From Gimesia fumaroli (GTDB lineage Bacteria; Planctomycetota; Planctomycetia; Planctomycetales; Planctomycetaceae), in assembly GCF_007754425.1 (NCBI RefSeq), contig NZ_CP037452.1, forward strand, positions 6,675,164 through 6,739,163: 64,000 nt of DNA, written 5' to 3'. Positions 46,454 through 64,000 of the stretch are shown here, piece after piece (within the stretch, counting starts at the first letter, position 1; each line of letters starts with the position of its first letter). The position numbers were made by a program, and so were the translations under genes. Below the pieces are notes generated by a model, which was not told where the DNA came from, searched no databases, and saw nothing but the letters and a program-made list of their open reading frames with translations.

Positions 46454-48157
46454 ATGGCCGACGATTGGATGCAACAGTTAGTAGATGATGGGTTTCTGGG
46501 CCCCGCTCAGATCGATGAAGCCTCGAGTCTGGCCAGTTCCATGGGAATTTCTCCTGGCGAAGCACTCGTCAAACTGGGGTATGTCAGCGCGGAAGTCATC
46601 GCTCAGGCTCAGGCCTCCATGTATGGATATGATTTCGTCGAACTTGACTCTCTTGAGATCCCCCAATCTGTCATTGAACTGGTTCCCGAATCGATGGCTC
46701 GGGAAAATACCGTGATTCCCGTGGGAATGAAAGGAGATTCCCTGCAAATCGCCCTGCATGACCCTATGAAATATGAGGTTTTGGATAAGCTGCGGTTTAT
46801 TATCAATCGCGACATTGATGTGGTGATGGCCCCCATTGAATCCATTCAGGCAGCGATCAACCGGCATTATGGGCAAAGTGAAACTGAGTCCGTAGATACG
46901 ATGCTCAAAGAGTTTACCGAAACTCAAATCGACATTACCGCAACAGAATTGGCAACAACCAATACCGTTGCCGAAGAAGATGAGAGCGCCCCGGTGATCA
47001 AGCTGGCGAATCTGATCATCAGCGAAGCCGTGAATATGCGGGCCAGTGATATCCACGTAGAACCGTTCGAAGACCGTATTCGAATCCGTTATCGAATTGA
47101 CGGCGTTTTAATTGAACGCGACAGTCCGCCTCGGCGTTTATTGATGGCGCTGGTCTCACGTTTCAAAATTATGGCTTCGATGGATATCGCCGAAAAACGC
47201 CGCCCTCAGGACGGTCGAATCAAGACCTCGTTTGGAGGGAAAGACTTCGACTTGCGTGTGAGTATTCTTCCCACCAACCATGGTCAGGCGGTCGTCATGC
47301 GTATTCTCGACCGTGATAACATCAAAGTGGGGATCCGAAACCTCGGATTCTCCGAAGAAAACTACCGCCGTTTCCAGACCATCATCCGCAGACCTAACGG
47401 GATTTTCCTGGTGACCGGACCGACGGGAAGTGGAAAGACGACAACTTTGTACAGTGCCTTGGGAGAGCTGAACCGCCCGGATCGAAAAATTATCACCGCG
47501 GAAGACCCGGTTGAATACTATCTGCCCGGCATCAATCAGGTCGAAGTGAAGCACAACATCGGCCTCGATTTCTCCCGAATTATTCGTGCGATGTTGCGGC
47601 AGGCACCCAATGTGATTCTCGTGGGAGAAATTCGCGATAAAGAAACTGCCGAGATGGCAATCCAAGCATCTTTGACAGGACACTTGGTATTCAGTACCCT
47701 GCATACGAACGATGCGCCCGGTTCTATTACACGACTGATCGACATGGGAGTACAACCGTTCCTCGTCGCATCCAGCGTAATGGCCGTCATGGCACAGCGT
47801 CTCGTGCGGGTTGTTTGTGGTAAATGTGTCGAAACGTATGTCCCTGATCCGGGTGAGCTGGAGTACCTGGGATTCACACCGAGTCAACTGGAAAACGCAA
47901 TTCATCACCGAGGCAAGGGATGCAACACATGTTCACACACCGGATACAAAGGGCGTAAAGCGGTGTTTGAGCTGATGATGATGAATTCGGCTATACGTGA
48001 AATGACTTTCCGAAGTGAAGCCGCCCAAAATATTCGAAGACAGGCTCGTTTGTTCGGTATGAAATCACTGGCAGAAGACGCAGCCGACAAAGCACTCGAG
48101 GGGATTACAACCCTCTCGGAAGCCTTAAAATTAGCGAAAGGTTTAGAGGGCCAGTAA
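46454..48157 (+). CDS. GspE/PilB-family assembly ATPase (first copy)
   Basis: Cytosolic hexameric ATPase that powers pseudopilus or type IV pilus extension; 567 residues. N-terminal MshEN domain about 5-140. Walker A GPTGSGKTT near 322-330, Walker B region ILVGEIRD, His-box TLHTNDAPGS. The zinc-binding CxxC pairs are CGKC and CNTC. GGAG lies 8 nt upstream of the ATG. First gene of a locus continuing with PilT, a second ATPase and the platform protein. It shares the layout of the second copy at 49872, but the two are clearly diverged. Confidence 0.95.
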   Translation: MADDWMQQLVDDGFLGPAQIDEASSLASSMGISPGEALVKLGYVSAEVIAQAQASMYGYDFVELDSLEIPQSVIELVPESMARENTVIPVGMKGDSLQIALHDPMKYEVLDKLRFIINRDIDVVMAPIESIQAAINRHYGQSETESVDTMLKEFTETQIDITATELATTNTVAEEDESAPVIKLANLIISEAVNMRASDIHVEPFEDRIRIRYRIDGVLIERDSPPRRLLMALVSRFKIMASMDIAEKRRPQDGRIKTSFGGKDFDLRVSILPTNHGQAVVMRILDRDNIKVGIRNLGFSEENYRRFQTIIRRPNGIFLVTGPTGSGKTTTLYSALGELNRPDRKIITAEDPVEYYLPGINQVEVKHNIGLDFSRIIRAMLRQAPNVILVGEIRDKETAEMAIQASLTGHLVFSTLHTNDAPGSITRLIDMGVQPFLVASSVMAVMAQRLVRVVCGKCVETYVPDPGELEYLGFTPSQLENAIHHRGKGCNTCSHTGYKGRKAVFELMMMNSAIREMTFRSEAAQNIRRQARLFGMKSLAEDAADKALEGITTLSEALKLAKGLEGQ

Positions 48158-48576
48158 GACAAGAACGAAAGACACAAACACGTACTCAATTTGAGTCGCA
48201 GAGAGCATAGATTACTTGAATCTCAATTTTCAGCGCCTAATGCAAGCAACGAATGAGTTTGATCTATTTCAGGGCTTTTGTTGAGTTTTGGAATGGTATA
48301 CCGGATAATTAGTTAGCTGTCGCGAATTTGCGGCCAGTTTCATTAATACATTTCTTAATATTCTTATCTAATATCGTTTAATTGATTCGCGTTTCACCTT
48401 GTCCCTGATTCACTCGAGTTATTCACGAAATTGATTCACAAGCAGATGATCGTTCTGAAAGAGAGACTACTCAAATCAAACAACGATCAACGCCTTCGTG
48501 ACTGGCTTCGGTACCAGTGATTTATTAGCGGTGATCGCTCACTTTTCAATCAAAGAGTTTTCAGAAAGTACTTTGG
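48158..48576. other. Intergenic region between the first ATPase gene and pilT
   Basis: About 420 bp, A/T-leaning, no gene. A palindrome ACTCAA-T-TTGAGT is at 48184-48196. pilT may have its own promoter here; no clear -35/-10 found. Confidence 0.4.
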
Positions 48577-62500: not shown

Positions 62501-64000
62501 AACGCAGCCGATACATTTGAAGGGGCAAGTGGAGACCCTTATAGCGAATTTCGAGTTGACCTGGACGGAAACGGCGATTTCAGTGATGCCGGGGAGCGCA
62601 TTATCCCCGCAGGAACCATCGCGGCTTCTGATAAAATTGATATGGTCAAAGATATCGCAACCACGAATACACTCGTTTCGGTTTTAAATTCCGGCCTGAC
62701 TGCCAGCGCCAGTGGCCCGGGTAGTTTCCTGTCGCAAGCAGAAACTGATTTGAGCACTGCCTCAGCAATCAAAGTAAAACTGTTCCGCAAAGCACATTTA
62801 GGCCGTGATACTTATGTTGCAACCGGCGGAGTCCCCGTTCCCGATGATGATAATCCGTGGGTTCTGGTTGATGAGATTGCTGTAGATAAAGGCACATTCG
62901 ATCTCGATGTCGATACCGCAATGGCCGCAACAGGAAAAATTGACAGTGATTTAATGCGAAGTAAGGAACGGTCACAGCCGTTGCGCAAAAATGGCGGAGA
63001 ATTAGTCAATAATACTGCTGGGAATATTCGGAACACCATTGGTCAGCAGAATTCACGAACAACATCGAACTTTTCATTATGGCAACCCCATTTCGACCGT
63101 GACTTTGCATCCCCCGTTGAGTTGCTCTCCATACCGGTTGTGGGGCCCACTCAGGAAAGTACAGCTACCAACAAAGATCCTAACGTAAATACCAATCAAT
63201 TGGATTCGCAAGATGATCCAGTCAAAACGAGAGAAAGGTTGATAACCTATGCCCTGGCTGACAGCGGCGGTCAACAGACTGGCACTGACGTCCAAGTGGC
63301 AGGAATTCAGAAATTTTTGAATCCTGATGGGCCCAATAACACAGGTCCGGATGCCGACGATAATTACTGGTATCGTTTATTCGAATATGTAGAAGTCCCG
63401 ACTCGGATTCATCGCCAACTGGCTAATCCGATGAAAGACATCCGGGTACCCGGAAAAATCAATCTCAACACAGTGCGACACCCCTCTGTGCTCGCCGCTT
63501 TGATTGATGATATGGGAACGACGAATAATGTTCTTAATGCTGCAAACTACGACGCTGATGTGCAGAATCCCAGAGACCTGTACCGTCTCACTGACCAGGG
63601 AGATAGCAATCGGGATTGGTGGGCACAGTTTATCCTCTCCCGTGACGGCTATGATAGTACGGCAATGCATTATCTGCCGGGAACACCTGGTTCCCGACCG
63701 TTTCGCAGCTTCGACTTCTTAGCATCTCGGAATGTAGCCACTACAGGTGTTCGCGATTTGAGAGAGAATACCCTGTTCCGTTCTCTGCCTGATGACATAA
63801 GCGGACATCCTGACGATCCTCGACATTTATTTGAAGTGGCAACCAGAGTAGAGCATGAGAACGGAACTGCTGACTTCCATACGCGTAATCGCATTTTGTC
63901 AAAAATCCTTGGCAACACGACCACCCGTAGCAATACGTTTGTGGTATTCATGTCGGTGGCCTACTTTGAGGCTTCGGGAGCAGGTCTGACAACCCATGAC
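59501..64000 (+). CDS. Giant GspK-like pseudopilin (partial, runs off the window)
   Basis: Open from the ATG (GGGAGG upstream) to the window edge, at least 1500 residues; classical GspK has about 300-350. Signal RRG/STLLVVIALLAVLALMAV, cleavage after Gly22, with no Glu at +5 (V27), the hallmark of GspK, followed by the hydrophobic helix. The mature part is beta-rich, with acidic EF-hand-like loops such as DVDNDGD and, near residues 763-785, GEDRNDNGSLDAGEDLNGNG. In known T2SS, GspK caps the pseudopilus with I and J and binds calcium. Whether this giant version caps a filament or has another surface role is unknown. The end is not visible. Confidence 0.85.
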   Translation, partial: MKSITMKQTGSYSNQVSSPRRGSTLLVVIALLAVLALMAVVFYTFSAQEQTSAENFADAAINEADPGLQADVLFDWGLEQLIKGPDPYRKNSALWGGDRPPHSLIYNMLGNDAAPFNGPGLNVVLNGGGPDIDTNFDGVGEGTATSRNQVGVNLSPAARAGETAANTALSNLPDMDVDYTSPDINSIFLAYKGYVPGLNWPTDLTDVKRVIIPSFHRPQHMRTNGGGIISDPYGNSSVATRVFRPHNDHTFVHRETGVDSGTPRFSTTVFDNSGYTNPGALGIWTANSMGNSETDYSLDVDNDGDTIPEGVWLDLDFPPIEDPQNPGDYIIPMFSFTVYDTDGLINLNTAGNMRQPGSIDLNFAPAGTFGNNTTGSGSNQFIFLSRSHQGLSSPGEINPQWAMTARIPGSVTTEFDQHFMFFGAQPSTWPELSNMEYFFLNFGRPDFTVPATIAEGTKSDIRDLLPGRWGEPNYLYAALRDASSDNLVTGQFPQPGQSGVDDNANRYEGSNQSGSLQGARAGAIAFKHPLAHNGAGRSWAAGANYRRTNLQAPTGGPATWPYYVNYEIAGPPLSSYPASVRWPAALFNNFATVANENYLLDDSDEIVVDMEKVQRPYDEPFGPEELAHLQLSNNDIVKSGVTSRLSELMPLNFGTTGGTNIDRRKRFTTMSWDRKQFSQPSNGGAVFPRRAWIESGVYRTELIASIGVNLPLDLSIPNEPQEVVDMILKNPQQRKLNLNQLLVFENTGTGKVFSYRPLTPHPGEDRNDNGSLDAGEDLNGNGVLDSLPANVISATTVYPPTTPAQQEFWARKDRQQLARDIYTLLASLDLDFTTSPASFKTGDSQLQIAQFAVNLVDALDPDDVMTRFEYDIDLSNDLDGDGRTWDLDDNPYTSENASERRVVWGVEAQQLTLSEFLLVQSEDQMSDLTVTQFPDDKVDGSDKERFFSAIELRNNSPYPVSFGNNGKWMLGLEVNNVMVSYAVPKLRSVTAGGLFTLLSSNAADTFEGASGDPYSEFRVDLDGNGDFSDAGERIIPAGTIAASDKIDMVKDIATTNTLVSVLNSGLTASASGPGSFLSQAETDLSTASAIKVKLFRKAHLGRDTYVATGGVPVPDDDNPWVLVDEIAVDKGTFDLDVDTAMAATGKIDSDLMRSKERSQPLRKNGGELVNNTAGNIRNTIGQQNSRTTSNFSLWQPHFDRDFASPVELLSIPVVGPTQESTATNKDPNVNTNQLDSQDDPVKTRERLITYALADSGGQQTGTDVQVAGIQKFLNPDGPNNTGPDADDNYWYRLFEYVEVPTRIHRQLANPMKDIRVPGKINLNTVRHPSVLAALIDDMGTTNNVLNAANYDADVQNPRDLYRLTDQGDSNRDWWAQFILSRDGYDSTAMHYLPGTPGSRPFRSFDFLASRNVATTGVRDLRENTLFRSLPDDISGHPDDPRHLFEVATRVEHENGTADFHTRNRILSKILGNTTTRSNTFVVFMSVAYFEASGAGLTTHD

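Follow-up and report, generated by a model that had tools for sequence, protein, structure and literature searches.

A planctomycete type IV filament-like locus pairs a nearly invariant motor with a hypervariable, exchangeable pilin cassette

Introduction

The locus described here lies in a 64,000-nucleotide stretch of the Gimesia fumaroli genome (the window; G000:C1:6675164-6739163, G000 being this host genome of 7.70 Mb on one contig). It consists of two extension ATPase genes, a PilT gene, a platform protein gene and six genes for prepilin-like proteins, in the order E1-T-E2-F-G1-G2-H-I-J-K. The nearest precedent for its variability is Pseudomonas aeruginosa, whose pilin groups carry differing minor-pilin sets (Giltner 2011, in PMC11841053); the available text of that source describes horizontal acquisition and possible phage evasion. 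As in the Gimesia locus, the alternatives there comprise pilin alleles and the minor-pilin sets coupled to them, served by a conserved type IV pilus (T4P) machine. To the extent of that text, the Gimesia locus differs in that six pilins, including a giant candidate tip protein, are encoded contiguously, immediately after the motor genes, and in that the allele classes span the species of a genus.

Like a type IVa pilus, the locus encodes extension and retraction ATPases, a platform protein and prepilins, but it has no linked PilMNOPQ, has two extension ATPases and encodes pilins of 291-1562 residues. It resembles a type II secretion system (T2SS) in its E-F-G-H-I-J-K order and in a K protein without Glu+5. 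Unlike a T2SS, it includes PilT and a second E gene, GspD is not linked, GspC, GspL and GspM were not spotted by eye, and K reaches no GspK model. It differs from both systems in that its ATPases and platform protein score under the PilB, GspE and GspF cut-offs. The Verru_Chthon cassette (TIGR02596, TIGR02599, TIGR02600) likewise encodes large prepilin-type proteins in the same superphylum, and UniRef names one K homologue (P0014) 'Verru_Chthon cassette protein A', but the matches in our locus are far under cut-off (H 34.3 of 70, J 23.2 of 256.5).

Planctomycetes carry unexplained surface fibers and many prepilins. Fibers of about 12 nm on the large crateriform structures (pits) of Planctopirus and Gemmata bind dextran (Boedeker 2017, PMC5394234); the portions of that paper at hand name no genes. 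In Tuwongella, 91 proteins carry both an N_methyl and an SBP_bac_10 domain, according to an excerpt of PMC8567305. A transposon-sequencing study of Planctopirus limnophila (PMC10632474) presents Plim_0410-Plim_0401, after its examples of essential loci, as four genes labeled 'Type II secretion' and six of unknown function restricted to planctomycetes, and suggests that they are linked to secretion; pilins, motor types, allele classes and exchange are not named in its accessible text. In 4 + 6 count, strand and map position, this set agrees with the locus that we found in the Planctopirus genome G281, and Plim_0410-0401 is probably the orthologous locus.

Results

Conserved motor and hypervariable cassette

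Our main new result is that the E1-T-E2-F motor is nearly invariant and that the pilin block behind it forms a hypervariable cassette open to exchange; we found no report of such exchange in the literature searched. The list of open reading frames (ORFs) of the window and its flank places ten + strand ORFs at 46454-64183, in window coordinates, with K reaching 183 bases beyond the window end:

46454..48157, + strand: E1, extension-type ATPase of the PilB/GspE kind with MshEN, 567 residues (PF00437 446.5 bits, PF05157 79.8)
48577..49695, + strand: T, PilT/PilU-type retraction ATPase, 372 residues (TIGR01420 446.6 bits, cut-off 319.1)
49872..51578, + strand: E2, second extension-type ATPase, with an MshE-related cyclic di-GMP (c-di-GMP) motif, 568 residues (PF00437 453.1, PF05157 74.6; NF053729 58.9, cut-off 38)
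51646..52911, + strand: F, GspF/PilC platform protein, 421 residues (PF00482 212.3; TIGR02120 380 bits, below the cut-off of 424)
53151..54026, + strand: G1, prepilin-like, candidate major pilin, 291 residues (PF07963 32.5 bits, above cut-off)
54064..55119, + strand: G2, prepilin-like, 351 residues from the ATG at 54064 (369 from the GTG at 54010; motif by eye)
55116..56507, + strand: H, prepilin-like, 463 residues (PF07963 28.9)
56504..57886, + strand: I, prepilin-like, 460 residues (PF07963 18.8, under the cut-off of 21.2)
57945..59420, + strand: J, prepilin-like, 491 residues (PF07963 24.1)
59495..64183 (window part to 64000), + strand: K, giant prepilin-like protein, GTG start, 1562 residues (ORF extended past the window)
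53271..64183, + strand: exchangeable cassette, ~10.9 kb, from G1 codon ~40-60 to the K stop (DNA identity borders, sister species and G000/G264)

All ten ORFs had been called at these places and sizes in the original prediction, an annotation made from the letters of the window, which gave K as at least 1500 residues. Its gspE-F-G-H-I-J-K-like order with PilT and a second extension ATPase agrees with the Pfam and NCBIfam matches; because the same gene order recurs across relatives, the locus is not a chance arrangement.

We compared 11 Gimesia genomes in every pair. Between the two Gimesia aquarii genomes (G045/G064) the motor proteins are 99-100% identical and G1-K 51-70%; in the pairs G218/G296 (G218 being G. 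chilikensis), G301/G296 and G295/G296 the corresponding values are 99-100% and 47-74%. Control proteins in the same four sister pairs are 93-98% (T2SS I/J/K) and 93-100% (T4P K/H/M) identical. At the DNA level, identity is mostly 92-99% over the motor and ~40-70% through the cassette. The left border falls between ~+120 and +180 of G1, just past the prepilin helix, with identity of 88-100% up to ~+120 and 50-83% thereafter. The right border lies between the K stop and ~60 bases past it, from where identity is at least 95%.

For G218/G296 and G045/G064, motor synonymous divergence (dS) amounts to 0.10-0.34, against 1.25 to saturated in the cassette. Because synonymous sites jump too, selection on amino acids alone cannot explain the divergence, and positive selection as its sole cause was rejected in Gimesia. 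The ratio of nonsynonymous to synonymous divergence (dN/dS) within classes is ~0.1, a value at which positive selection is not demonstrated and the cassette genes therefore look functional. Among nine species of a genus of another family (g14), the motor is 90-99% and the five compared cassette proteins are 50-79% identical in 36/36 pairs, a comparison of protein identity in which fast evolution without exchange is possible.

Allele classes

The cassette tree groups the genomes into class A (G000, G045, G294, G296) and class B (G064, G297, G166, G218, G295, G301), with G264 apart; G294 is G. algae and G264 is G. alba. The motor DNA tree agrees with a control tree of T2SS/T4P proteins. In approximately unbiased (AU) tests the cassette rejects the species clades (p 4e-65, 2e-4), and motor and control reject class A (p 3e-5, 1e-9); these p-values are not blind, the classes having been named after the identity table was seen. 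Class A forms one clade in 6/6 cassette genes; E2 and D1, a DUF1559 gene downstream of K, both reject it. Identity of I, J and K is at most 51% between classes and at least 61% within them. G264 is inconsistent, its G1 grouping with B and its K being closer to A.

The same discreteness is seen in 50 Gimesia-like K proteins, which fall into clusters of 28, 18, 3 and 1 with no pair at 60-65% identity. Two K classes occur within each of two species, G. panareensis (P0014/P0027) and G. aquarii (P0006/P0038). Cassette dS in class A is ~0.8-2.1, mostly at or below the motor dS of 1.3-2.5, and in class B it is above the motor dS. Random transfer as the sole cause was set aside because branching within classes is partly species-like; old polymorphism with some exchange between species fits better.

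Distribution and co-conservation

K was searched in 294 genomes of the phylum, and 39 match: 26 clearly, 12 weakly, and G061. The 26 clear matches come from the family of Gimesia and two other families of the class; all were fetched, together with one weak match (G172). E1-T-E2-F stands directly upstream of the cassette in 24/26 fetched K loci, and the other 2/26, both of genus g3, have the cassette alone and an intact E1-T-E2-F elsewhere in the genome. The original prediction had suggested that these genes form one machine, and had named in advance a lack of co-conservation between prepilin-like and ATPase/platform genes as what would refute this. In the neighborhood comparison that it proposed, the two sets proved to be co-conserved, linked in 24 loci and both present but unlinked in two, and the suggestion stands.

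All ten genes are recognizable in 18 of the 24 linked loci, all 18 in the family of Gimesia. In this comparison of the six linked loci of the other two families, f2 and f3 (G286, G188, G291, G112, G155 and G246; K of 1818-1990 residues), I was recognized in two only, and no J in the interval from I to K. J may have been lost, moved or fused there; in G246 a J-like ORF comes after K. Five further Gimesia loci are linked, each with the full set of ten genes. In one of them, G295 (locus L095), G2 is split into two ORFs of 272 and 74 residues by a frameshift, either genuine or an assembly error.

Within Gimesia, K was matched in 14/17 genomes; of the three without a match, two have a completeness of 74-76%. 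Gene loss in G208, a Gimesia genome with no K match, is unsupported, since its contig stops 285 bases after F. A scan of species genomes returned 110 stretches that encode a relative; among the 80 listed, all but two titles name planctomycetes, the two being 'Emcibacter' (L160) and 'bacterium' (L188). The 12 weak K matches (E 2e-5 to 8e-4) involve either the EF-hand-like loop or the N-terminal helix in most cases and were left out of the counts; the one that was fetched, G172, has no relative of the block. G061:C492 encodes a Gimesia-like K (47% identity) on a short contig of a 1330-contig assembly assigned to another family, and may reflect transfer or contamination.

Motor proteins

E1 and E2 both combine T2SSE and MshEN domains in Pfam and NCBIfam. 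Both fall narrowly short of the PilB equivalog TIGR02538 (610.8 and 634.5 bits, cut-off 675.65) and of the GspE equivalog TIGR02533 (604.9 and 607.2 bits, cut-off 630.25), as F does of the GspF model; the PilT cut-off is reached by T, and that of the c-di-GMP motif by E2. PF00437, PF00482 and PF07963 are all above cut-off and encoded together, as in the broad type IV filament superfamily, and T supplies the PilT-type retraction ATPase of type IVa pili. PilT was found in every motor locus fetched. PilT next to two extension ATPases is a hallmark of a filament that extends and retracts, and its presence points to a retractable filament.

Prepilin-like proteins

Six of the ten genes encode prepilin-like proteins (291, 351, 463, 460, 491 and 1562 residues). 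The prepilin N-terminus PF07963 is above cut-off in G1, H and J, below it in I (18.8 vs 21.2), and without a match in G2 or K. G2 has no Pfam match at all and weak ComGD/GspG matches in NCBIfam. Read by eye, GFTIVE in G2 and GVTLME in I fit the prepilin motif, and RRGSTLLVV in K fits it without Glu+5, as does the GspK ORF of the host genome. The prepilin-type signals claimed earlier for all six were thus recovered by PF07963 in G1, H and J; the match of I is sub-cut-off, and those of G2, I and K are motifs read by eye.

Models for single pilins gave scores under their cut-offs. G1 gives the best GspG match, with 42.2 of 88.85 bits, and GspG is its closest curated model; H matches GspH with 32.9 of 80 in addition to TIGR02596 (Verru_Chthon cassette protein D), I matches TIGR02523 (PilV) with 27.2 of 52.2, and J matches TIGR02599 (cassette protein C), the Verru_Chthon scores being those given above. 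None of the Verru_Chthon cassette proteins A-D reaches its NCBIfam cut-off in this locus. Against the T2SS of the host genome, I matches T2SS I in a profile comparison (48 columns, P 3e-7) and J matches T2SS J (84 columns, P 7e-8); the specificity of these matches is incomplete, T2SS I having a match to cassette J too (P 4e-6). The likeness of the cassette proteins to T2SS models and profiles covers the N-terminal helix region only. A comparison with PHROGs gave nothing specific to the cassette proteins.

K has no Pfam or NCBIfam match and reaches no GspK model; its N-terminal helix resembles GspK in a profile match over 45 columns (P 1.5e-5). AlphaFold2 models of K have mean confidence (pLDDT) of 72.7 and 74.6, and suggest the second of two features:

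61784..61852, + strand: K residues 764-786, EF-hand-like Asp/Asn-rich loop pair (by eye; UniRef names homologue P0121 an EF-hand domain protein)
62222..62887, + strand: K residues 910-1131, predicted immunoglobulin (Ig)-like beta-sandwich, lamin-tail-like (AlphaFold2 model, moderate match)

The lamin-tail-like Ig fold match is moderate, is supported by PF00932 in 2/19 homologues, and says nothing on function. TIGR02600 also matches 2/19 K homologues (best E 0.045). In G295/G301, whose cassettes are otherwise 96-99% identical, K differs in patches with DNA identity as low as 63-78%, suggesting exchange on a finer scale within the gene.

Other filament loci and candidate exit pores

About 150 kb upstream, the host genome has a separate T2SS-type locus (L011) with E, F, prepilin-like ORFs (G to J, named from gene order), a GspK with PF21687, a PilM-like ORF and then a secretin. 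A further locus, of T4P type, encodes PilM, PilN, PilO, a secretin and E-T-F close to the contig end. The E1-K block is therefore a third machine. The outward search for a secretin and PilD that the original prediction called for was done genome-wide: secretin domains lie at 9 places and prepilin peptidases at 4, none of them within 80 kb of the block. No GspC, GspL or GspM candidate was spotted by eye in the ORF lists of the locus, and no model search was made for these three.

PilMNOP and PilQ are likewise not linked to the block; the host genome has the unlinked PilMNO/secretin locus. Relatives of its secretin among 22 K genomes are strong (at least 341 bits) in 10, intermediate (125-170 bits) in 4 and at most 106 bits in 8; a T2SS-sized secretin frame (1242-1491 residues) is present in 21/22. 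The T4P-locus secretin was rejected as an obligate or general exit, with a strong relative in just 10/22, and secretin sharing with the T2SS is a possible exit route. A 1714-residue protein (L109:7479-12623, - strand) has the C-terminal part of the secretin domain only, with weak TPR matches; long-frame relatives of it occur in many K-bearing genomes, and it is a possible partner pore.

Discussion

The explanation that we favor, and consider probable, is that the locus encodes a two-module planctomycete machine for a retractable, pilus-like type IV filament, and that old cassette allele classes are re-assorted while the motor is inherited vertically. The conserved module would be the motor, made of two PilB/GspE-type extension ATPases, PilT and one GspF/PilC platform; the variable module would be the six-gene cassette, coding the filament and its tip. 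An unlinked PilD would cut the prepilins, giant K with I and J (and H) would prime the filament and end at its tip, and G1 and/or G2 would polymerize below the tip to form the filament body. These roles, K-I-J-H as primers or cap and G1/G2 as body, are assumed by analogy with T4P and T2SS tips. E1 and E2 would push the filament out, T would pull it back, and exit would be through an unlinked or shared secretin.

Large, fast-changing, exchangeable filament genes suggest an exposed recognition surface under strong selection. If pilins and tip are exposed, balancing or diversifying selection through phage attachment or recognition of partners or ligands, with polymer binding also a candidate, would then give rise to old, discrete allele classes, which recombination in the conserved flanks would re-assort between close relatives. 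A bolder version, which we regard as unlikely, makes the cassette a serotype-like balanced polymorphism of a core planctomycete filament, kept across Gimesia speciation, with ~10.9-kb haplotypes swapped intact between strains and with the filament being the crateriform-pit fiber and serving as the main phage receptor or self/non-self recognition surface. The original prediction had proposed a planctomycete-type filament machine with a remodeled, large cap; one planctomycete-type machine with oversized pilins and no linked secretin is indeed what we found, and the remodeled cap is plausible.

Several observations weigh against the two-module filament. The filament is predicted from its genes, and surface exit is assumed, because no secretin or alignment complex is linked; the nearest secretin domain is ~86 kb off. 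Sequence likeness of K to GspK is confined to the helix, and the model of K residues 1-760 has no match among solved folds in the PDB. Little contrast between modules is seen in two Planctopirus genomes (motor 98-99%, cassette 87-97%), namely G281, which we take to be P. limnophila, and G252, P. ephydatiae; the same holds for G127/G177 (97-99% and 87-95%), and G295/G301 differ mainly in K (84%). The branching inside classes, which partly tracks the species tree, suits old polymorphism as well as transfer. To these are added the within-class dN/dS, the AU p-values and the g14 comparison, each with the limit stated above.

The gene order could also mimic gspE-F-G-H-I-J-K because the locus is a second, diverged T2SS, with a short periplasmic pseudopilus, a secretin shared with the main T2SS and a cassette co-evolving with its cargo. 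K lacks Glu+5 like GspK (by eye), I and J match their T2SS namesakes in profile comparisons, a T2SS-size secretin frame is far more widespread among K genomes than a strong relative of the T4P secretin (21/22 vs 10/22), and the accessible text of PMC10632474 takes the P. limnophila locus as secretion-related. Yet all fetched motor loci include PilT, the genome holds a separate T2SS-type locus whose own pseudopilins do not vary in the same species pairs, no secretin is linked and no GspC, GspL or GspM was spotted by eye, and the profile matches are N-terminal only and, as the pairing of T2SS I with cassette J shows, not fully specific. On the strength of PilT, the separate locus and the non-varying controls, we lowered this T2SS-variant reading, toward which the original prediction had leaned in part, and now hold it to be quite unlikely. 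A DNA-uptake (competence) pilus, whose variable pilins bind DNA and whose machine feeds the recombination that shuffles the cassette, would account for PilT with a small prepilin set and for the ComGC/ComGD-type models among the weak matches. However, the ORF lists show no linked competence gene, competence pilins are far smaller than 300-1560 residues, and the need for hypervariability would go unexplained, which makes this account very improbable.

A special case of the filament machine that we favor would have the block make the ~12-nm dextran-binding pit fibers, with a cassette that varies with the polymers caught. Such fibers are described from Planctopirus and Gemmata in the text at hand of Boedeker 2017 (PMC5394234), and the locus is present in both Planctopirus genomes, G281 and G252. 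Nothing links the two directly, however, these genomes also contain further pilus loci and numerous DUF1559 prepilins, and the Planctopirus cassettes are conserved between the two species; we regard the assignment as tentative and somewhat doubtful. That misassembly, misalignment or ordinary fast evolution merely mimics a swap is scarcely credible. Some genomes are metagenome-assembled and G2 is split in G295, but single-contig genomes (G045, G064, G218, G295) show the swap, synonymous divergence jumps together with the amino acids, the sharp borders have recurrent positions, no such variation is seen in the controls, and the classes recur in 50 independent K entries.

Machine and filament thus separate as evolutionary modules within the type IV filament superfamily, and the clean borders give a direct comparison in which the motor is alike and the cassette different. 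For an exposed filament, the cassette class would predict which phage, partner or polymer is recognized.

Genes downstream of the locus

Directly after K lie two DUF1559 prepilin genes (PF07596), D1 (L009:5627-6730) and D2 (L009:6806-7903), together with two ClpP-like ORFs. PF07596 gives 130 match segments in the host genome and none in 14 control genomes. D1 is polymorphic between sister species, yet independent of cassette class (G218/G296 98%, G218/G301 78%). A relative of these DUF1559 proteins sits after K in 15/26 K loci.

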